DNA of 25,928 nucleotides from a virus, in IMG/VR virus record IMGVR_UViG_3300030380_003844, positions 1 through 25,928 of that record. One strand, 5' to 3'. The translations under genes were made by a program, and so were the position numbers. Below are positions 299 through 18,901 of the stretch, piece after piece. Numbering within the stretch: position 1 is the stretch's first letter; each line of letters starts with the position of its first letter. Under the pieces are notes generated by a model that did not search any database, was not told where the DNA came from, and saw nothing but the letters and a program-made list of their open reading frames with translations.

Positions 299-775
299 AT
301 GGAATTAACACGTAATTTTAGTTTACAAGAATTAATTAAATCAGATACAGCCGTACGTTTGGATATCAATAACAATCCAAACTCAGGACAGATAGAAAAA
401 CTAAAAGCACTGTGTGAAAATATTTTACAGCCAGTACGTGACCACTTCGGCAGAGTAAAAGTAACTAGCGGGTTCCGTAGCGAGCAGCTGTGCCTAAAGA
501 TAGGTAGCTCAGTCAATAGTCAACATGCAAAAGCTGAGGCGGCAGACTTCGAATGTATTGGTGTGGACAACGCTGAGTTAGCTGATTGGATTAACAAGAA
601 CCTTCCGTATGACCAGCTCATTCTCGAGTTCTACACTCCAGGTGAACCTAACAGCGGATGGATTCATTGCAGTTACACACCCGACCAACCAAGAAAACAA
701 TTCTTGCATGCTTACAAATCTGAAGGTAAAACTAAATACAAACCAATTATTGGAAAAGCAAAAGATTTAGTTTAA
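299..775 (+). CDS. M15-type zinc peptidase, probable endolysin
   Basis: A 158-residue protein of the peptidase M15 (D,D-/L,D-carboxypeptidase-like) type, which cleaves peptidoglycan cross-link peptides to release progeny. Visible marks are the SGFRS motif at 57-61, the SxHxxxxAxD-type zinc signature with His76 and Asp83, and the third ligand His123 in the WIH motif at 121-123. The length fits single-domain phage endolysins. There is no signal peptide, so it would need a holin or similar for access to the wall. The start is supported by a GGAG about 6 bases upstream. The middle of this gene is near 47-48% GC in two sampled 60-base lines (421-540), clearly higher than the flanking genes, which suggests a different origin. 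It abuts the halogenase start with no gap. Confidence 0.88.
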   Translation: MELTRNFSLQELIKSDTAVRLDINNNPNSGQIEKLKALCENILQPVRDHFGRVKVTSGFRSEQLCLKIGSSVNSQHAKAEAADFECIGVDNAELADWINKNLPYDQLILEFYTPGEPNSGWIHCSYTPDQPRKQFLHAYKSEGKTKYKPIIGKAKDLV

Positions 776-1927
776 ATGAAAATAGCTGTTATTGGCGCAG
801 GAACCGTTGGAGTCCTAAGTGTTTGTCATTTTTTAGGATTTACTTCAAAAGATATTGAAGTAACTTGTGTACATAATCCCAAAAAAAATATTTTAGGTAT
901 TGGTGAAAGTAGCACCATAGCGATGCCATTACTTTTATGGCAAACATTAAATTTTAATTGTGAGTTTGATGGTCAAGATTTACAATATACATATAAAGCA
1001 GGAGTAAAGTTTAAGAATTGGAGAAATTCCGATTTTACAAGTCCTATAATACCACCTAATTATGCAATACATTTTGATAATTTTAAATTAGCAGAAGTTA
1101 TCTTTAAAAAAGTTTATGAAAAATATTCTAATAGATTTAGTGAATTAAATATTGATATAAAAACAATAGATCAAAATAACCATGAAGTTATTATTAATAA
1201 TAAATATAAATTTGATTACGTTATAGATTGTCGAGGTTTTCCTAAAGATTATACAAATTATACAAAAGTAAATCTTCCAATAAATCATTGTTTAGTTCAT
1301 CCTGTCGATGAACCAGGTAATTGGAATTTTACATATCACGTTGCACATGATAATGGATGGATGTTTGGTATACCTCTTAAAAAGAGACAAGGGTGGGGAT
1401 ATTTATATAATGATGAGATTACTTCAAAAGAAGATGCGTTAATTAATTTTAATAAGATTACAAATAGAAAAATAAATCATGATAATATAAGAGAGTTTAC
1501 ATTCAAACCTTTTAGAGCGAAAAAGTTTGTTGACGGCAGAATATTACTTAATGGTAACTCTGCATTATTCTACGAACCTATTGAAGCTATTTCGGGAGGA
1601 TTTTATGATGAACTGAACCGATTTTTTTTTGATTATATATTTAATAATACTGTGAATGAAAAACAAATAAATGATTCAATGCTAGATTTATCTGATAGAT
1701 ATTTGAACTTTATATCATTTATATATAAAGGTGGTAGTATCTATAAGACTGATTTTTGGAAACATACACAAGATATATGTAACAAGAATTTACAAAATAA
1801 CAAATGGCTGCAAACAATTGAAAACGTAAAAAATAAAAGCAATCCAAACCCTGCTTTGTATCCTTTTAGTCCAGAAGCATGGTATATTCTAGATAAAAAT
1901 TTATATAATAGTAAAACATTTAAATAA
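776..1927 (+). CDS. flavin-dependent (tryptophan-type) halogenase
   Basis: A 383-residue protein of the FADH2-dependent halogenase family, which uses reduced flavin, O2 and halide to halogenate electron-rich substrates. The N-terminal Rossmann motif GAGTVG is at 7-12, GIGESS at 41-46 (as in PrnA/RebH), and a lysine in the YKAGVKF segment (Lys74) matches the catalytic Lys position. VIDCRGF (149-155) is the second FAD-binding strand. GWMFGIP (194-200) is a variant of the family's WxWxIP box. EPIEAISGG has Glu270 at the position of the catalytic Glu. It is shorter than PrnA (about 540 residues), as are viral relatives. A known precedent is VirX1 of cyanophage Syn10, a marine viral halogenase with broad iodinating activity. 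No flavin reductase is visible here, so reduced flavin would come from the host. The gene is extremely AT-rich (about 15-17% GC in two sampled lines, 1081-1200), unlike the endolysin it abuts. The substrate is unknown. Confidence 0.85.
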   Translation: MKIAVIGAGTVGVLSVCHFLGFTSKDIEVTCVHNPKKNILGIGESSTIAMPLLLWQTLNFNCEFDGQDLQYTYKAGVKFKNWRNSDFTSPIIPPNYAIHFDNFKLAEVIFKKVYEKYSNRFSELNIDIKTIDQNNHEVIINNKYKFDYVIDCRGFPKDYTNYTKVNLPINHCLVHPVDEPGNWNFTYHVAHDNGWMFGIPLKKRQGWGYLYNDEITSKEDALINFNKITNRKINHDNIREFTFKPFRAKKFVDGRILLNGNSALFYEPIEAISGGFYDELNRFFFDYIFNNTVNEKQINDSMLDLSDRYLNFISFIYKGGSIYKTDFWKHTQDICNKNLQNNKWLQTIENVKNKSNPNPALYPFSPEAWYILDKNLYNSKTFK

Positions 1928-1941
1928 ACAAAGGAGATAAA

Positions 1942-2073
1942 ATGGCCATAGGAAGAGGACAAATATCTGCACAAATAGATGGTAAGTTGAGAGGTGCTAG
2001 AGGTGAAAAAAAGAAAAAAATACAAGTTAAAAAGAAACCCAACAGCAAAAAGTCTAAGGTCTTCAAAGTTTAG
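1942..2073 (+). CDS. small basic protein, 43 residues
   Basis: A short ORF starting at ATG 1942 with a strong AAGGAG ribosome binding site at 1931-1936, ending at TAG 2071-2073. The N-terminus reads MAIGRGQIS and the C-terminal half is a run of Lys-rich clusters with pI well above 10. Similar tiny Lys/Arg-rich proteins sit between lysis and neck genes in marine phages (recollection). It could bind nucleic acid or be a minor virion component, but no fold is recognisable. Confidence 0.65.
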   Translation: MAIGRGQISAQIDGKLRGARGEKKKKIQVKKKPNSKKSKVFKV

Positions 2074-2123: not shown

Positions 2124-2819
2124 ATGGCGACTTCAGGAACAACAAGTTTTAATCTTAATATCGATGAAGTAATCGATGAGGGTTATGAAAGATGTGGTCT
2201 TAGCACTACTTCTGGTTATGAAATGCGATCCGCTAGACGAAGTCTAGATCTCTTATTTGCAGAATGGGGTAATAGAGGTATCCATCTTTGGAAAGTAGCT
2301 CTTCATGAAGCAACTCTAGTTAGTGGGCAAGCAGAATATTCTGTTGCAGCCGATGTTAGTGATGTTTTAGAAGCTTTTGTATCTTCAACTGCAGCAGGAG
2401 CAAATAGTGTCAATACTCAAGATGTATCATTAACAAAAATAGATAGATCAGCTTATGCAGCTTTACCAAATAAATTAGCTCTTGGACAACCTTCACAATA
2501 TTATGTAGAAAGATTAACCACACCTAAAATATATTTATATCAAGCACCTGATTTAAACACTTACACAACATTAAAATATTATGTAATAAAAAGAATTGAA
2601 GATGCTGGTGCTTACACTAATGATGCTGATGTTGCTTATAGATTTCTGCCTTGTATGTGTGCGGGCCTAGCATATTATCTATCTATGAAAAAAGCTCCAC
2701 AGCTTGTACAACAAAATAAATTAGTTTATGAGGATGAATTGAAAAGAGCGTTAGATGAAGATGGTCAAAGAACATCTACATATATCACTCCACAATCTTT
2801 TTATCCTAACGGAGTATAA
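2124..2819 (+). CDS. head-tail adaptor / tail accessory factor (P22 gp4-like)
   Basis: A 231-residue protein whose N-terminal third matches the pattern of P22 gp4-type tail accessory factors: a helical segment with EVIDEGYERCGL (15-26), then a helix ending in LLFAEWGNRGIHLW (48-61). The equivalent gp4 region reads as an alternation of helix, AEW and a short turn. These proteins bind under the portal and close the neck of short-tailed phages. The remainder is mixed beta/alpha with no other motif I know. The start is supported by AAAAGGAC 6 bases upstream. It is followed at 2 bases by a structural protein and then a second adaptor-like protein, which fits a neck gene cluster. The assignment rests on pattern recognition, not an alignment. 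Confidence 0.65.
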   Translation: MATSGTTSFNLNIDEVIDEGYERCGLSTTSGYEMRSARRSLDLLFAEWGNRGIHLWKVALHEATLVSGQAEYSVAADVSDVLEAFVSSTAAGANSVNTQDVSLTKIDRSAYAALPNKLALGQPSQYYVERLTTPKIYLYQAPDLNTYTTLKYYVIKRIEDAGAYTNDADVAYRFLPCMCAGLAYYLSMKKAPQLVQQNKLVYEDELKRALDEDGQRTSTYITPQSFYPNGV

Positions 2820-9274: not shown

Positions 9275-9292
9275 GTAGCAACAATGCTACAA
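9273..9292 (+). promoter_or_regulatory. perfect 8-bp hairpin enclosing a start codon
   Basis: TTGTAGCA (9273-9280) and TGCTACAA (9285-9292) are exact reverse complements around the 4-base loop ACAA. The ATG at 9284-9286 starts in the last loop base. No T-tract follows, so it does not look like an intrinsic terminator. It could hide the start codon in read-through RNA. Confidence 0.55.
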
Positions 9293-10030
9293 AATATTAT
9301 TGAATTTAAAGCTAATCATCAATACGTAGATTTAAAAGAAGATCTTCCAAAACCAATTAAATTAAATATTCCTGAGTGGTATAAAAAATTACAACACTCA
9401 GCAACTAAACTAACTATAAAAGGTTGTGTACCTGTCATGGATAGTTTGACTACTGGCTATGTTTTGAGTCTTCCACAAGATATAATGCTAAAAAATAATG
9501 TTTTAGAAGATAATAAAATTATTAGTCGTATGATTCCCTCTGTACAAGATACATTAAAAACAATAGATTTGAATATAAATGTTGAAGATGTTGATCAAAC
9601 ACATCACCGAGGACAGGTTGAAGGATCTCCTATTAATAAAAAAAATTTACAATTTCCTATACAGAAACTTCTTAACCCCTGGACTATAAAAACACCTCCT
9701 GGATATTCTTGCTTATTTGTACCACCTTTAAATAATGAAGATGATAGATTTTCTATTATACCAGCTATTGTAAATACCGATACATTTTCTTTACCAATAA
9801 ATTTTCCGTTTATAATGAATGGAGATAAATATCCAGTACTTGATACAACTTTAAAAAGAGGTACACCCTATGTTCAAATAATACCATTTAAAAGAGATAA
9901 TTGGAAAATGAAAATTACAGGTACAAAAAGAACAGAATCTAATAAACATGAGGTAACTTTTTTAAAACATAGCCTCGATATACTTCATAGATATAGAACT
10001 AAATGGTGGAACAAAAGTAGTTTTTTTTAA
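9284..10030 (+). CDS. conserved phage protein of unknown function (possibly DUF6065-like)
   Basis: A 248-residue soluble protein with strongly conserved-looking blocks: IPEWYKKL (29-36), GCVPVMDSLTTGYVLSLPQDI (47-67 region), PWTIKTPPGYSCLFVPPLN (132-150), NFPFIMNGDKYP (173-184) and GTPYVQIIPFKRDNWKM (193-209). I recall this pattern from a family common in marine phages and some bacteria beside 2-oxoglutarate oxygenase genes; DUF6065 is my best guess for the family name, not verified. The Pro/Trp/Tyr-rich strand pattern suggests a beta fold. It ends in TAATG, coupled to the first oxygenase. Composition is AT-rich (about 25% GC in one sampled line). Confidence 0.6.
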   Translation: MLQNIIEFKANHQYVDLKEDLPKPIKLNIPEWYKKLQHSATKLTIKGCVPVMDSLTTGYVLSLPQDIMLKNNVLEDNKIISRMIPSVQDTLKTIDLNINVEDVDQTHHRGQVEGSPINKKNLQFPIQKLLNPWTIKTPPGYSCLFVPPLNNEDDRFSIIPAIVNTDTFSLPINFPFIMNGDKYPVLDTTLKRGTPYVQIIPFKRDNWKMKITGTKRTESNKHEVTFLKHSLDILHRYRTKWWNKSSFF

Positions 10031-10602
10031 TGGAAAAAATTAGAGATTATATATTAACAATAGAAAACGCAATGCCTTATAATCAATTAGAGGTTTTGAA
10101 GGAAGTTTGTGAATCAAATCATTTAGGAAACGAACCTGGTGTAGTTGGTATAGATAGAAGATTAGATCCAACGATTAGAAAAACAAGAGTAAGATATCTT
10201 TTTAATGCAGGAGAAGACTGTAAAAGTATGACAATGGCTTATTGGGCTAACTACTTAATGAAGTTATTTACTCATTACAAAAAACAATACTGTCACGCAT
10301 ATAAAATTAACTACAGTGACATTAATGTAAGTGAGTTACAGTTGTTAACTTATGGTAAAGGTAGCTTTTACAAAACACATGTAGATCATTTTAGAAATAG
10401 TCCTAGAACTTTAAGTTTTATTTTTTTAGTTAATGATAATTATGAGGGTGGAGAATTGTATTTTAAACTAACAAACGAAACAATAAAAATTCCAGTTAAG
10501 CAAGGTTCACTTGTTATATGGCCAAGTGGTTTTCAATACCCACATGGAGTTCTTCCTGTCACAAAAGGCGAAAGGTATGCGGTAGTATCATGGGCATTAT
10601 AG
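10030..10602 (+). CDS. 2-oxoglutarate/Fe(II) oxygenase, prolyl 4-hydroxylase-like
   Basis: A 190-residue oxygenase of the P4H-like group that couples 2-oxoglutarate decarboxylation to hydroxylation. The iron triad is His117 and Asp119 (THVDH), with His172 (PHGV). Arg182 in GERYAVVSW would bind the 2-oxoglutarate carboxylate. GGELYF (140-145) is the usual strand after the first ligands. The N-terminal 100 residues are helical, as in other phage members. It starts in the stop of the previous gene and overlaps the next oxygenase by 13 bases. Substrate unknown; protein or glycan targets are more likely than metabolites, given the late-gene setting (inference). Confidence 0.85.
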   Translation: MEKIRDYILTIENAMPYNQLEVLKEVCESNHLGNEPGVVGIDRRLDPTIRKTRVRYLFNAGEDCKSMTMAYWANYLMKLFTHYKKQYCHAYKINYSDINVSELQLLTYGKGSFYKTHVDHFRNSPRTLSFIFLVNDNYEGGELYFKLTNETIKIPVKQGSLVIWPSGFQYPHGVLPVTKGERYAVVSWAL

Positions 10603-11141
10603 GTAAAGATTTTAAGTATAAAAAAATAGATAATATTCTAAATGAAAATTTAGTTAATTTTTTTAGAGAGTATTGTAAATTTAAACATCAGTTCGATAAT
10701 AAAATGCATTTATTTAATGATGATAAAATTACTGCTGGTGATAGTCAACACTATGGTGATTTTGCTACTGAATCTTTATTAATAATGCTTCAGCCAGAAA
10801 TAGAAAAAATAGTAGGTAAAAAATTATTACCTACGTATTCTTTTTGGAGAATGTATACATATGGTGGTTATTTAAAAAAACATACTGATAGAGAGGCATG
10901 TGAGATAAGTGTTACATTGAACATAATGGGAGATACTGATTGGCCTATTTATATTGAAGATAACGAAGTACATTTAAAACCTGGTGATGGTGTAGTTTAT
11001 TTAGGTTGTGAACTTAATCATGAAAGAAAAAAACTTAAAGGAGATTATCAAGCACAAATATTTTTACATTATGTAGAAGAAGATGGTAAAAATGCATGTT
11101 ATAAATTTGATCAAAGACCAGCTTTAGGAGCCCCAAAATGA
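10590..11141 (+). CDS. second 2-oxoglutarate/Fe(II) oxygenase
   Basis: A 183-residue protein from ATG 10590. A longer in-frame start at 10518 would add 24 residues that read against the first oxygenase and carry no domain, so I prefer 10590, which overlaps the upstream stop by 13 bases. Iron ligands are His98 and Asp100 (KKHTDR) and His144 (NHER). Conserved-looking blocks are SFWRMYTYGGYLKKHTDR (84-101), CEISVTLN (104-111), and QAQIFLHYV (154-162). It differs clearly from the first oxygenase, so the pair is not a recent duplication. It is very AT-rich (about 13% GC in the sampled line 10621-10680). Likely hydroxylase; substrate unknown. Confidence 0.8.
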   Translation: MGIIGKDFKYKKIDNILNENLVNFFREYCKFKHQFDNKMHLFNDDKITAGDSQHYGDFATESLLIMLQPEIEKIVGKKLLPTYSFWRMYTYGGYLKKHTDREACEISVTLNIMGDTDWPIYIEDNEVHLKPGDGVVYLGCELNHERKKLKGDYQAQIFLHYVEEDGKNACYKFDQRPALGAPK

Positions 11142-14977: not shown

Positions 14978-16345
14978 ATGAATATTCTTTCACTTCATCT
15001 TTCTCATGAGGGATGTGCAACTTACATTCAAGATAATAAAATAATTTTTCATACACAATTAGATAGATATAATAGATTTAAATATAACACTTTTCCAACT
15101 TATGAAATTATATCTATTTTAAAAAAAATTAACATAGATATTATAATAATTACTTTTTTAAACGAAAATAATTCAGCACTTTTGTGGAGAGATTTTTTAC
15201 AAGCTTTACCAAACATAGAAAAAAGAAAAATTATATTTTATGGTAAAGAACATCATCATTTATTCCATGCCTATTGTTCTTTAACTTGGAGAACAAATAT
15301 AAAAAATATTTTAGTTACAGACTCTAGAGGTAAAGAAATAGAAGACGATTTCGAAAGAGAAAGTTTTTATATGTATAATAATAAACTGGAGCATGTTAAA
15401 ACTTTTACAAAAAAAGATGCTCCTACTATTGGAGATAATTATGCAGAATTTACCGAAAAAAATTTTGAAAGCTCTCTTGCATGTGGAAAGACAATGGCTT
15501 GGAGCCTGTATGATGAGAGACCAAATAAAATACAAAAACAATTTGAAAACGATATGAATGGGATATTAGATTCATTTAAGATAGAGAAAGAAATATTATT
15601 TACTGGTGGGTGTGCACAAAATATTTTATATAATTCAAAGCTTTTACAAAAATACAATAAGGTTTTTTGTGATCCTTTTAATGGAGATTTTGGTATTAGT
15701 TTAGGAGCTGCAAATTATTTTACAAATAATAAAATAAAAAATGATACTGTTTATTTAGGAATACCACAAAAAATAAATACTGATCTATTTTTAAAACACA
15801 AGATAATTAAATGTACACAAGATGATGTGAGCAAAATTTTATTAAATAATCCTGTAGCTATATTTCAATCAAGAAGTGAACAAGGGCAAAGAGGGCTTGG
15901 AAATAGATCGCTTCTTATGAGTCCAATACATAAAGATGCACACAATTTAATAAATGATATAAAAAAAAGAGAATGGTTCAGGCCCTTTGCTTGTTCAGTT
16001 CTTAAAGAAGCTGCTAAAGATTGGTTTGATATGAATATAGAAGAGTCTCCATACATGATGTACGTTTTTAAATTAAAAAAATTAGGAATACTAAAAGCTG
16101 GTATTTCTGTAGATAATCATTCAAGAATACAAACTGTTTCAAAAAAAAATAATTTACACTATTATAATCTAATAAATTCTTTTAATAAGTTAACTAATGT
16201 ACCAATGTTAATAAACACAAGTCTAAATTTACCAGGAGAGGTTCTAGTTGAAACACTTAATGATTTAAAAAATATGTTCGAAAAGAGTAATTTAAAGTAC
16301 ATATATTTACCAGAAATAAACACTTTAATACAGAAACAGTATTGA
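14978..16345 (+). CDS. carbamoyltransferase (NodU/CmcH/TobZ family)
   Basis: A 455-residue protein with the two-domain layout of O-carbamoyltransferases that move a carbamoyl group from carbamoyl phosphate, through carbamoyl-AMP, to hydroxyls. Marks in the N-terminal domain: LHLSHEG (6-12), a metal-binding HHHLFHAYC (92-100; His93, His97), VTDSRG (113-118) and GGCAQN (210-215). The C-terminal (YrdC-like) domain has EQGQRGLGNRSLL (301-313), REWFRPFA (331-338) and NTSLNLPGEVLVET (413-426). It is shorter than NodU (about 560), lacking some linker segments, but key motifs are intact. It is very AT-rich (about 17% GC in one sampled line). Candidate acceptors are sugars placed by the downstream glycosyltransferases or a modified virion protein; DNA carbamoylation is less likely, as no hydroxymethylating genes are visible. 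Confidence 0.85.
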   Translation: MNILSLHLSHEGCATYIQDNKIIFHTQLDRYNRFKYNTFPTYEIISILKKINIDIIIITFLNENNSALLWRDFLQALPNIEKRKIIFYGKEHHHLFHAYCSLTWRTNIKNILVTDSRGKEIEDDFERESFYMYNNKLEHVKTFTKKDAPTIGDNYAEFTEKNFESSLACGKTMAWSLYDERPNKIQKQFENDMNGILDSFKIEKEILFTGGCAQNILYNSKLLQKYNKVFCDPFNGDFGISLGAANYFTNNKIKNDTVYLGIPQKINTDLFLKHKIIKCTQDDVSKILLNNPVAIFQSRSEQGQRGLGNRSLLMSPIHKDAHNLINDIKKREWFRPFACSVLKEAAKDWFDMNIEESPYMMYVFKLKKLGILKAGISVDNHSRIQTVSKKNNLHYYNLINSFNKLTNVPMLINTSLNLPGEVLVETLNDLKNMFEKSNLKYIYLPEINTLIQKQY

Positions 16346-16376: not shown

Positions 16377-16574
16377 ATGAGCGATTTAGTAAAAATACCT
16401 GCAGAAGCAAAAGAGATTATTAAACACAAAAGAACGGGAGAAGTTTATGCTACTAAAGCTGATTTTGATGCTGATGTTGCTAATCCCAACACTGATACTA
16501 CTGTGGATGATTTTAGACAAGACCTAGAAATTAAAGTGACAAAAGTTTCTATGGGTGCTAAAACCAAGGAATGA
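16377..16574 (+). CDS. small hypothetical protein
   Basis: A 65-residue protein: a Lys-rich N-terminus with AEAKEIIKHKRTGEVYATK (9-27), an Asp-rich middle (ADFDADVANPNTD) and a short C-terminal strand ending TKE. The GEVYATKADFDA pattern resembles a beta-hairpin seen in other small phage proteins, but no function is known to me. It overlaps the next gene by four bases (ATGA). Confidence 0.6.
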   Translation: MSDLVKIPAEAKEIIKHKRTGEVYATKADFDADVANPNTDTTVDDFRQDLEIKVTKVSMGAKTKE

Positions 16575-17077
16575 GCCCAACCAAAGTTATTCAATCTTTT
16601 GATGATTTGCGTTTTGATTTTAATCAATTAACTGATTTATTATCATCAGCCAATTTTAAATCTAGAGTAAGTGGCAATCACTTAAATGAATTTATTTTAC
16701 AAGCATCCTATCAAATACTAGGTACACATACTCATATTTATTTTAAAGATTTAATAGAAAAAATGATAAAAAAATATTATCTCTATGGTGTTCCTATAGA
16801 TGTAGATTTATTTGCAGGCTTCACACAAAGTGCAGCTTCAACAATACATGATGATCCTTATGATGTTTTGATATATGGTCTGTACGGAGACACTATGTAT
16901 ATTGTAGATAAAAAACAATATTTAGTAAAAGCAGGAGACATAATAAGGATAAACGAAGGTGAAGTTCACCAAGGAATAGGGTTATCACCCAGAATAATTC
17001 TATCATTAGGAATTAGAAAAGATAAGGTTGTAGAAAATAATTTAAAAAATAGAAGCAGACCCGAAATAGAAGTATAA
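16571..17077 (+). CDS. cupin / JmjC-like oxygenase-fold protein
   Basis: A 168-residue protein. The C-terminal half is a double-stranded beta-helix with SAASTIHDD (88-95), DVLIYGLYGDTMYIVDKK (98-115), the cupin strand VKAGDIIRINEGEVHQG (119-135) and SPRIILSLGI (139-148). His93, Asp95 and His133 make an HxD...H triad as in JmjC-like hydroxylases, and the turn between GDII and EVH is typical. The N-terminal 80 residues are mostly helical. A hydroxylase acting on protein or sugar is likely; a sugar epimerase-type cupin is the alternative. It precedes two glycosyltransferases by 5 bases. Confidence 0.65.
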   Translation: MSPTKVIQSFDDLRFDFNQLTDLLSSANFKSRVSGNHLNEFILQASYQILGTHTHIYFKDLIEKMIKKYYLYGVPIDVDLFAGFTQSAASTIHDDPYDVLIYGLYGDTMYIVDKKQYLVKAGDIIRINEGEVHQGIGLSPRIILSLGIRKDKVVENNLKNRSRPEIEV

Positions 17078-17082
17078 TTTTT

Positions 17083-18012
17083 ATGGAACCTAGAGGAGCC
17101 ACTGAGCTACAATTTGAATTGCTTGAAAAACATGTGCCAAAAGACTTGCTTGACCAAGTTCAAATATGCACTTCTATTCCAGGCAAAGTACCAATTGATC
17201 CAAACAAGCTAAACATACTTTGGCAAAAAAATTCTTACGATCAAGCAAATCTTTGTCATTGGTTTGCTGATACAAATAACCATAAACAGTATGATTGGTA
17301 TGTTTTTAATAGTCATTGGAATTATGAAAAATTCAGATACTTCTTTCGTATACCTACCGAAAAATGTGTAGTTATAAAAAATGGTATTAATAATTTTCCG
17401 CAAAGAAAAGTTTATAAAAAAGGTGATCCAATAAAAATACTACACCACAATACTCCTTGGAGAGGTTTAAACGTTTTATTAGCAGCTATGCAGTTAGTAA
17501 AAAACCCCAACATCACGTTAGACGTTTATAGTTCTTCCCAAGTTTATGGTGATGCCTTTTCCAACAACAACGAAAAAGATTTTGAACCTTTATATGATCA
17601 AGCAAGACAAATGGCCAATGTAAATTATATTGGATACAAACCAAATGAATATATTTTAGAACATATAACGGATTATGATTTGTATGTTTACCCTAGTAAT
17701 TTTGAAGAAACATTTTGTGCCTCTGCCTTAGAGGCGCTGGCTGCGGGTGTTCATGTAATAACCAATAACTTTGGTGCATTGTATGAAACTTGTGCTGAAT
17801 GGCCGGTGTATGTAAATTATGATTCAGACAACGAGAGAATGGCTAGAGATACTGCTACAGCTATTGAAGTTGCTGCAACATATTTACATGAATCGTTTAT
17901 ACAAGAACATCTTGAGGAACAACAAAAATTTTACAAAAGATTTTACAATTGGACAAAAAAGGGATTAGAGTGGGAAAGCTTTTTACGTGGAGCTCTAAGT
18001 GCAAGGAAATAA
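17083..18012 (+). CDS. GT4-like (GT-B) glycosyltransferase
   Basis: A 309-residue retaining-type glycosyltransferase. The shortened N-terminal domain covers about 1-95. The C-terminal nucleotide-sugar domain has VIKNGIN (97-103), HNTPWRGLNVLL (122-133), an early Arg of the R-x-K/L loop (Arg127), and the donor-binding E-x7-E motif as Glu209 and Glu217 in EETFCASALEALAAG. The length is below the usual 350-400 residues, so the acceptor domain is trimmed. A TATAAT lies at 17073-17078, 4 bases before the start, but it includes the preceding stop and has no -35, so it may be chance. It overlaps the next gene by 14 bases. Sugar and acceptor unknown; virion protein or glycan modification fits the setting. 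Confidence 0.83.
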   Translation: MEPRGATELQFELLEKHVPKDLLDQVQICTSIPGKVPIDPNKLNILWQKNSYDQANLCHWFADTNNHKQYDWYVFNSHWNYEKFRYFFRIPTEKCVVIKNGINNFPQRKVYKKGDPIKILHHNTPWRGLNVLLAAMQLVKNPNITLDVYSSSQVYGDAFSNNNEKDFEPLYDQARQMANVNYIGYKPNEYILEHITDYDLYVYPSNFEETFCASALEALAAGVHVITNNFGALYETCAEWPVYVNYDSDNERMARDTATAIEVAATYLHESFIQEHLEEQQKFYKRFYNWTKKGLEWESFLRGALSARK

Positions 18013-18901
18013 AACTTACATAAACGAGGATACTTATCAAACCTTAAAAGATGTTAAGGTAACATCATCGAATAACCAAGAAGTTGAGCTTAACGAATAT
18101 GAAAAACGTATAAAGCCAATATGGATAAAGGACACCGGACAACGGAAAAGTAAAACATCTTTGTTTGTTGCAACACCTGTACACAGTGATTGTTCAATTC
18201 ATTATGCACAAGGATTGTTGCAATTACAAAAATTGTGCATGGAAAAAAAGGTAGAAGTACAATTTCAACTATTGAAATCATCATTAGTAACACAAGGAAG
18301 AAACTTGTGTGTATCAGGGTTTATTGAATCTGGAATGACTCACATGTTGTTTGTTGATTCAGATATATTGATGAATGCAGAGTCTATTTTTAAAATGATA
18401 GACAGAGATAAAGATATTATCTCAATTCCATATCCACTAAAAACATTTAATTGGGATAAGGCTTTTGATGCAATTAAAAAAGGTGAAGTAAAAAAACCTT
18501 CTGATATTCACAAATGGACTAATAGTTATCCAATGAGAGTGAAAGATACTAACGACATTGTTGTAGACGAAGGTGTCATAGAAGTTACACATAGTCCAAC
18601 AGGATGTATGATGATTAAAAGAGAAGTATTCGATAAAATGATTAAACATTATCCAGATAAAGGTATAGTTCAAAAGACAGTTATTAATGGTGAGTATGTA
18701 AATAGACCTCATCTATGGAACTTTTTTGACTGTATTCATGACCCTGAAACTAAGACATATTTAGGTGAGGATTTTAGCTTTTGTAAACTATGGAAAGACA
18801 TAGGTGGTAAGTGTTATGCCTTTATTGATGATCCAATTATGCATATTGGAGAGCATCAATATTCAGGACGTTTTGCCGATGAGTTGATAATACCTAAGTA
18901 A
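17999..18901 (+). CDS. GT-A-type glycosyltransferase with DxD motif
   Basis: A 300-residue protein. The start is a GTG at 17999, supported by GGAG about 7 bases upstream and 14-base overlap with the GT4 gene; no ATG start gives the full domain. The GT-A core has LFVATPVHSD (55-64), a SSLVTQGRNLCVSGFI segment (94-109) and the metal-binding DSD at 120-122 in FVDSDIL. HSPTGCMMIKREVF (198-211), GEDFSFC (256-262) and HIGEHQY (282-288) follow. This family is common in marine phages next to tail genes. Donor and acceptor are unknown. Together with the GT4 it could assemble a short glycan. Confidence 0.82.
   Translation: MQGNKTYINEDTYQTLKDVKVTSSNNQEVELNEYEKRIKPIWIKDTGQRKSKTSLFVATPVHSDCSIHYAQGLLQLQKLCMEKKVEVQFQLLKSSLVTQGRNLCVSGFIESGMTHMLFVDSDILMNAESIFKMIDRDKDIISIPYPLKTFNWDKAFDAIKKGEVKKPSDIHKWTNSYPMRVKDTNDIVVDEGVIEVTHSPTGCMMIKREVFDKMIKHYPDKGIVQKTVINGEYVNRPHLWNFFDCIHDPETKTYLGEDFSFCKLWKDIGGKCYAFIDDPIMHIGEHQYSGRFADELIIPK

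Follow-up and report, generated by a model that had tools for sequence, protein, structure and literature searches.

A short flavin-dependent halogenase homologue beside the endolysin gene of a pelagiphage

Papers have recorded prnA genes in cyanomyoviruses from 2010 onwards (PMC2984593, PMC3037559) and in 20 of 153 cyanophages (PMC10452541), with genes of 1,104–1,167 bp and genes of 1,437–1,593 bp pooled as a single family (PMC3037559). The viral protein VirX1 of cyanophage Syn10 (6QGM) accepts many small heteroaromatic compounds (PMC8407142). Motifs of flavin-dependent halogenases (FDHs), and their meaning, are taken here from PMC8407142 and PMC8269204: FxxPxxSxG or variants are reported in all active FDHs and the WxWxIP box is thought to block monooxygenation (PMC8407142), while FDHs without the Trp4 motif do not interact with tryptophan (PMC8269204). 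A survey of HTVC023P-type pelagiphages discusses 2OG oxygenases and 'ferrochelatases', and its main text contains no word beginning with 'halogen' (PMC9599517). Here we describe a halogenase homologue in a 25,928-nucleotide stretch of viral DNA from IMG/VR, referred to as the window (Table 1).

The halogenase gene and its insertion site

The open reading frame is intact, and its ATG start follows the endolysin stop codon (773–775) at once, with a gap of 0 nt. The encoded protein matches the Pfam family Trp_halogenase over two stretches, scoring 103 bits, above the curated cut-off of 21, and the PHROG family 'tryptophan halogenase' with E = 8.9e-77; a search of NCBIfam gave no match. Its best PDB sequence matches were LooH, RebH, PrnA and Thal, with VirX1 weaker. 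An AlphaFold2 model, built from 27 sequences comprising the window protein and its relatives, predicts an FDH fold. Foldseek matched the model to tryptophan halogenases over its whole length, with E values down to 1e-26, and structural comparison gave Z scores of 39.3 against AbeH (rmsd 3.1, 373 residues aligned), 36–39 against SttH, Th-Hal, PyrH and RebH variants, and 29.9 against VirX1; for RebH, PrnA and PyrH taken as a group the range was 32–37.

A near-identical copy of the halogenase (99%) is present in another contig (L003), and further relatives are 64–73% identical. The gene is under purifying selection: its dN/dS is ~0.13–0.22 against relatives of 65–74% identity and reaches 0.39 at 43% identity, with dS exceeding 1 and hence poorly measured, and is 0.10–0.13 in the lower-dS pairs L040/L035 and L026/L027. 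Together, the copy, the relatives and the dN/dS values of about 0.13–0.22 argue that the reading frame is real, beyond chance, and on the same ratios we rejected its reading as a degraded gene.

Protein matches identify the window as part of the genome of an HTVC023P-type pelagiphage. Its adaptor and its stabilisation protein (59%) are closest to those of Pelagibacter phage HTVC023P, with HTVC027P next, which upholds the original prediction of a podovirus-type phage; the M15 peptidase endolysin and SU10-type adaptor that neighbour the gene likewise place it at the predicted lysis-to-neck junction. The same prediction described an FDH homologue directly abutting the endolysin, as the Pfam and PHROG matches and the coordinates confirm, and lacking an adjoining flavin reductase; none was seen among the window proteins scanned against Pfam and PHROG, which included part of the small ORFs.

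HTVC023P and the window agree in layout at the endolysin, the adaptor, the fibre, the 2OG island and the glycosyltransferase, but neither its complete genome nor that of HTVC027P contains a PF04820 gene. In HTVC023P, a 46-aa ORF (gp50) comes next after the endolysin and overlaps its stop codon, leaving the site empty. The small gp50-like ORF of the window, traced by tblastn, is shifted 1,166 bases downstream by the halogenase. Because the ORF found at the endolysin stop in HTVC023P is displaced in the window, the halogenase must have been inserted where two genes are known to adjoin. Searches matched the gp50-like ORF at 49 loci, some of the matches being weak, and in 25 of these it lies directly at the endolysin stop, so that the site is empty; at the empty site of L240, the small ORF is 98% identical to that of the window. 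An endolysin adjoining an empty or filled site was found at 80 IMG/VR loci. We take the halogenase to be optional cargo of HTVC023P-type pelagiphages. Its late expression, as first proposed, is unsupported; transcripts of the related phage HTVC027P are reported to have a mosaic arrangement (PMC12753301). Across L191–L270, the endolysin is 85–98% identical though the neighbouring genes differ completely, suggesting frequent exchange of the endolysin gene.

Table 1. Features of the window discussed in the text.
Feature	Position	Strand	Evidence
Endolysin, peptidase M15_3, cargo-site flank	299–775	+	PF08291 E 3e-15; phrog_894 endolysin
Short flavin-dependent halogenase homologue, 383 aa	776–1927	+	PF04820 E 2.4e-29; mean pLDDT 91.8
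GxGxxG FAD motif, Gly7–Gly12	794–811	+	80/80 relatives
Catalytic Lys74 (= RebH Lys79)	995–997	+	Alignment; 80/80 relatives
Shortened segment Trp82–His99, residues 83–98, Trp2 absent	1022–1069	+	Length comparison, regex
WMFGIP, WxFxIP form of the WxWxIP box	1358–1375	+	93/93 short members
FYEPIEAISGG with Glu270 (= RebH Glu357)	1568–1600	+	Fits FX[DE]PX[EFL]; Glu codon 1583–1585
43-aa ORF like HTVC023P gp50	1942–2073	+	tblastn
SU10-type head-tail adaptor	2124–2819	+	PF24175 E 7e-9; 74% to HTVC023P
DUF6065-like protein, tail-fibre island	9284–10030	+	phrog_7084; predicted dUTPase-like fold
2OG-Fe(II) oxygenase (2OGa)	10030–10602	+	PF13640 E 9e-19
Second putative 2OG-Fe(II) oxygenase (2OGb), PHROG 'ferrochelatase'	10518–11141	+	phrog_2954 E 1e-49; HTD...H read from sequence
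NodU-like carbamoyltransferase	14978–16345	+	PF16861 E 7e-47
Cupin-like protein, possibly a further oxygenase	16571–17077	+	PF07883 E 7e-5, below cut-off; between carbamoyltransferase and glycosyltransferase-like genes
Glycosyltransferase group 1	17083–18012	+	PF00534 E 4e-14
Anp1-like, possible glycosyltransferase	17999–18901	+	PF03452 E 2e-4, below cut-off; phrog_1574

Architecture and motifs of the short clade

The window protein shares with RebH, PrnA and PyrH the fold, the GxGxxG motif and counterparts of Lys79 and Glu357, and with VirX1 its viral origin, the PF04820 fold and the conserved Lys and Glu. It is built differently, however. The segment between Trp82 and His99 spans 16 aa, compared with 62–81 aa in VirX1 and the long phage FDHs, 45–65 residues before His99 being missing in the short clade, and the stretch after Trp328 has 55 residues, compared with 77–113 in the long phage FDHs. 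VirX1 itself has 530 aa, an 81-aa segment, WVWNIP and ESTG, and is 21% identical to the window protein. Maximum-likelihood analysis of 54 sequences gave a 100/100 branch that parts the short proteins from the long ones, including VirX1 and RebH, and the neighbours of VirX1 are Syn10b, a 528-aa protein of L096, and RebH. The sole exception, L098_3_390, whose reading frame opens at base 3 of the contig, is a truncated long protein. This shows that the 'prnA' of phage annotations comprises two deeply separate enzymes, for which a single function is unwarranted.

VirX1, originally put forward as the near precedent, is set apart by this split and its low identity. Closer counterparts are the short 'tryptophan halogenases' (T4-GC 212, prnA) of Synechococcus phages S-MS29, S-SSM5 and S-SSM7, which likewise carry WMFGIP and Lys74 and are 37–43% identical to the window protein over nearly the full length. 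They differ in belonging to T4-like cyanophages, where the gene has gp33, phoH and nrd around it instead of endolysin or fibre genes, and the S-SSM7 copy has Gln at the Glu270 position. The accompanying view that viral halogenases are rare also had to be given up, as 64 phage records match the halogenase, one IMG/VR scan returned 259 related stretches and prnA has been in print since 2010. No assay of any short-clade member was found in the literature.

For residue and context counts, 80 of the 259 IMG/VR relatives were kept. The FAD motif of the window protein reads GAGTVG (residues 7–12), and its G7, G9 and G12, together with Lys74, Glu270 and E267–P268, are invariant in all 80. Residues counted in the alignment, in native numbering, place Lys74 on RebH Lys79 and Glu270 on RebH Glu357. 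Both therefore occupy the catalytic positions of RebH, and the FAD, Lys and Glu signature first read from the sequence is in place. Lys is also found at the Lys74 position in VirX1, RebH and ten bacterial relatives. FYEPIE conforms to FX[DE]PX[EFL], as do 91 of the 93 short members, and in the full FYEPIEAISGG stretch A-I-S stands in place of S-T-G (Ser to Ala, Gly to Ser). The strict FxxPxxSxG form is found in none of the 93 short members and in only 8 of the 28 long phage sequences, and does not separate the groups.

Instead of the WxWxIP box of RebH, PrnA and PyrH, the window protein has WMFGIP, with W195 and F197 aligned to RebH W282 and W284. None of the 93 short members has WxWxIP, whereas all 93, which are viral, have WxFxIP, making it a trait of the clade; the IMG/VR scan partly used a GWMF pattern, which biases the WMFGIP count, and loci found by the other pattern as well as GenBank phages also have WxF. 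A local mutation is rejected on this ground. The variant box had been recognized correctly, but the peculiarity thought to suggest a switch of halide or substrate is common to the clade. The Trp2 (HxFG) and Trp4 tryptophan-binding motifs of RebH, PrnA and PyrH are also absent from the window protein by regex search, which found Trp4 in 0 and HxFG in 1 of the 93 short members.

The clade-wide change of the box bears on whether the protein is a flavin monooxygenase or oxidase, in which F197 would open the flavin site and a C4a-hydroperoxide would oxygenate the substrate directly. The loss of a presumed block on monooxygenation (PMC8407142), the company of 2OG oxygenases described below and the loss of Glu270 in bacterial members speak for such a reaction. 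However, Lys74 is invariant even in members without Glu270, Phe is a conservative change, and Bmp5 and other active FDHs lack the box (PMC8407142). We regard direct oxygenation as distinctly unlikely.

A pattern-limited scan of bacterial genomes found only ten relatives, nine with Val/Ile and one with Gln at the Glu270 position. One of the ten (L110) is a phage-like sequence. The scan returned no homologue from SAR11, the most abundant bacteria in the ocean. Short PF04820 genes that stand alone in MAGs of Vampirovibrionales, Eremiobacterota and Myxococcota (L101–L109) form one clade (100/100). They share the short architecture, WMFGVP and the Lys with the window protein, but have Val/Ile for Glu270 and no phage context, and are 32–37% identical. 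We saw no sign that the short form derives from a bacterial biosynthetic cluster, the bacterial relatives standing alone when their ORFs were read by eye. Gln occupies the Glu270 position in three other short members (S-SSM7, P-TIM40 and a locus assigned to Nonlabens). Because of these members and the bacterial Val/Ile, catalysis need not be conserved across the clade. The large deletion relative to characterized FDHs could even indicate a non-catalytic or decaying PF04820 protein kept for binding or as a scaffold. This is very improbable, given that all 80 relatives keep the catalytic and FAD positions, that dN/dS is low (0.13–0.22) and that the full-length fold is predicted with confidence.

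Neighbouring genes and the candidate substrate

Cargo occupies two sites, the tail-fibre island and the endolysin flank. In most short-halogenase contigs, the gene lies within a 2OG-Fe(II) oxygenase island between the tail-fibre and stabilisation genes. A 2OG oxygenase or another halogenase lies directly beside the short halogenase at 31 of 38 loci (non-redundant at 90%), against 17.3 expected from random gene boundaries of the same contigs, a control that leaves in shared ancestry of the loci and a shared preferred insertion site. The window halogenase has no such direct neighbour; its own island (DUF6065-like, 2OGa and 2OGb, 9284–11141) is 7 kb away. No oxygenase is annotated within 8 kb of the short halogenase in S-MS29 and S-SSM5. 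The island order is fibre, c33, DUF6065, 2OGa: among 80 relatives of the DUF6065-like protein, 2OGa is beside 79 and the small c33 protein beside 78. Only 7 of these 80 loci, all counted on partial contigs, include a halogenase, which is on that account an optional extra of the island.

At the endolysin flank, 2OG oxygenases (L204, L214, L215, L224, L225, L237, L249 and L260), carbamoyltransferases (L226, L227, L231 and L260), a sulfotransferase-family protein (L249) and long halogenases (L022, L210 and L213) are found. In L022 the endolysin is flanked by a long halogenase on one side and a short one on the other, and L025 has two short halogenases in tandem. The window also holds genes for a carbamoyltransferase and a cupin-like protein, as well as two that are glycosyltransferase-like. 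Hydroxylation, then carbamoylation, sulfation or glycosylation, plus ring halogenation, would have the look of a tailoring set. The DUF6065-like protein was considered as the missing flavin reductase and provisionally set aside, as its model (pLDDT 83) resembles dUTPases (best Z 10.3, with a dUTPase in each of the 50 rows; the Foldseek E of only ~0.01 is weak) and no flavin-reductase match was listed.

The halogenase probably tailors a phage or host molecule. With about as much confidence as doubt, we read it as a working shortened FDH, carried as optional pelagiphage cargo, whose substrate is bulkier than tryptophan and likeliest a virion (tail) protein, modified at an aromatic side chain. 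By analogy with known FDHs, a host reductase would supply reduced FAD, and O2 and halide would yield HOX, which would travel to Lys74 and halogenate an aromatic ring activated by Glu270. The missing adjoining reductase is no obstacle, because host flavin reductases can suffice for FDHs and served PrnA in another host (PMC8407142). Free tryptophan is presumably not the substrate, since the segment and the Trp motifs are missing and FDHs without Trp4 ignore tryptophan (PMC8269204). More weakly, a substrate bulkier than free tryptophan is suggested, and within it the virion-protein side chain as the likeliest single target class; this target is favoured because fibre-side cargo sites are shared with hydroxylases and carbamoyl-, sulfo- and glycosyltransferases, and because small-substrate elements are lost. 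Against the working-FDH reading stand the changed WxWxIP box and a FxxPxxSxG motif that reads FxxPxxAxS, and a shared site of insertion might account for the proximity to oxygenases.

The enzyme could instead be an active halogenase on a small molecule, such as a host metabolite, an indole derivative or a signal during infection, in the manner of an auxiliary metabolic gene. Characterized FDHs mostly act on small aromatics and VirX1 takes many of the heteroaromatic kind (PMC8407142), genes for DNA metabolism, not fibre genes, surround the members from S-MS29 and S-SSM5, and the bacterial short relatives stand alone. Yet the tryptophan substrate-binding motifs are absent, most relatives lie in fibre-side islands with oxygenases, and no biosynthetic genes for aromatic small molecules were found nearby, making a small-molecule substrate rather unlikely.

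A more specific form of the virion-protein reading, tentative and rather doubtful, is that the short FDH halogenates aromatic residues of virion proteins within an exchangeable set in which 2OG hydroxylases make acceptors that carbamoyl-, sulfo- and glycosyltransferases cap. If true, marine phage tail fibres would be chemically diversified post-translationally by genes carried by the most abundant ocean phages. The large conserved clade in any case offers enzymes whose active sites are unusually built, and makes the old question of what phage halogenases modify directly testable.

Several minor observations concern the neighbouring genes. The PHROG labels 'ferrochelatase' (2954, 3531), 'DNA endonuclease V' (274) and 'minor coat protein' (1644) have been given to 2OG-Fe(II)-oxygenase-like proteins, examples being window 10518–11141, L066:8454-8945 and L024:6741-7373, with HxD...H and weak 2OG or DUF6445 Pfam matches; 2OGb itself had no Pfam match and its PDB sequence search gave nothing useful. 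The 'ferrochelatase' label is repeated in the pelagiphage paper (PMC9599517). In Syn10, the gene immediately downstream of VirX1 (L015:576-1364) encodes a counterpart of the DUF6065-like protein, a link made by reading the sequences by eye, and the window protein also matches proteins of the haloarchaeal tailed viruses HF1, HF2 and HSTV-2. Finally, PF04820 genes number four or five in each of the marine viral records G003–G006 (contigs L096/L097, L087, L093 and L100), one of them short and the other three or four long, with 2OG oxygenases and DUF6065-like genes alongside.
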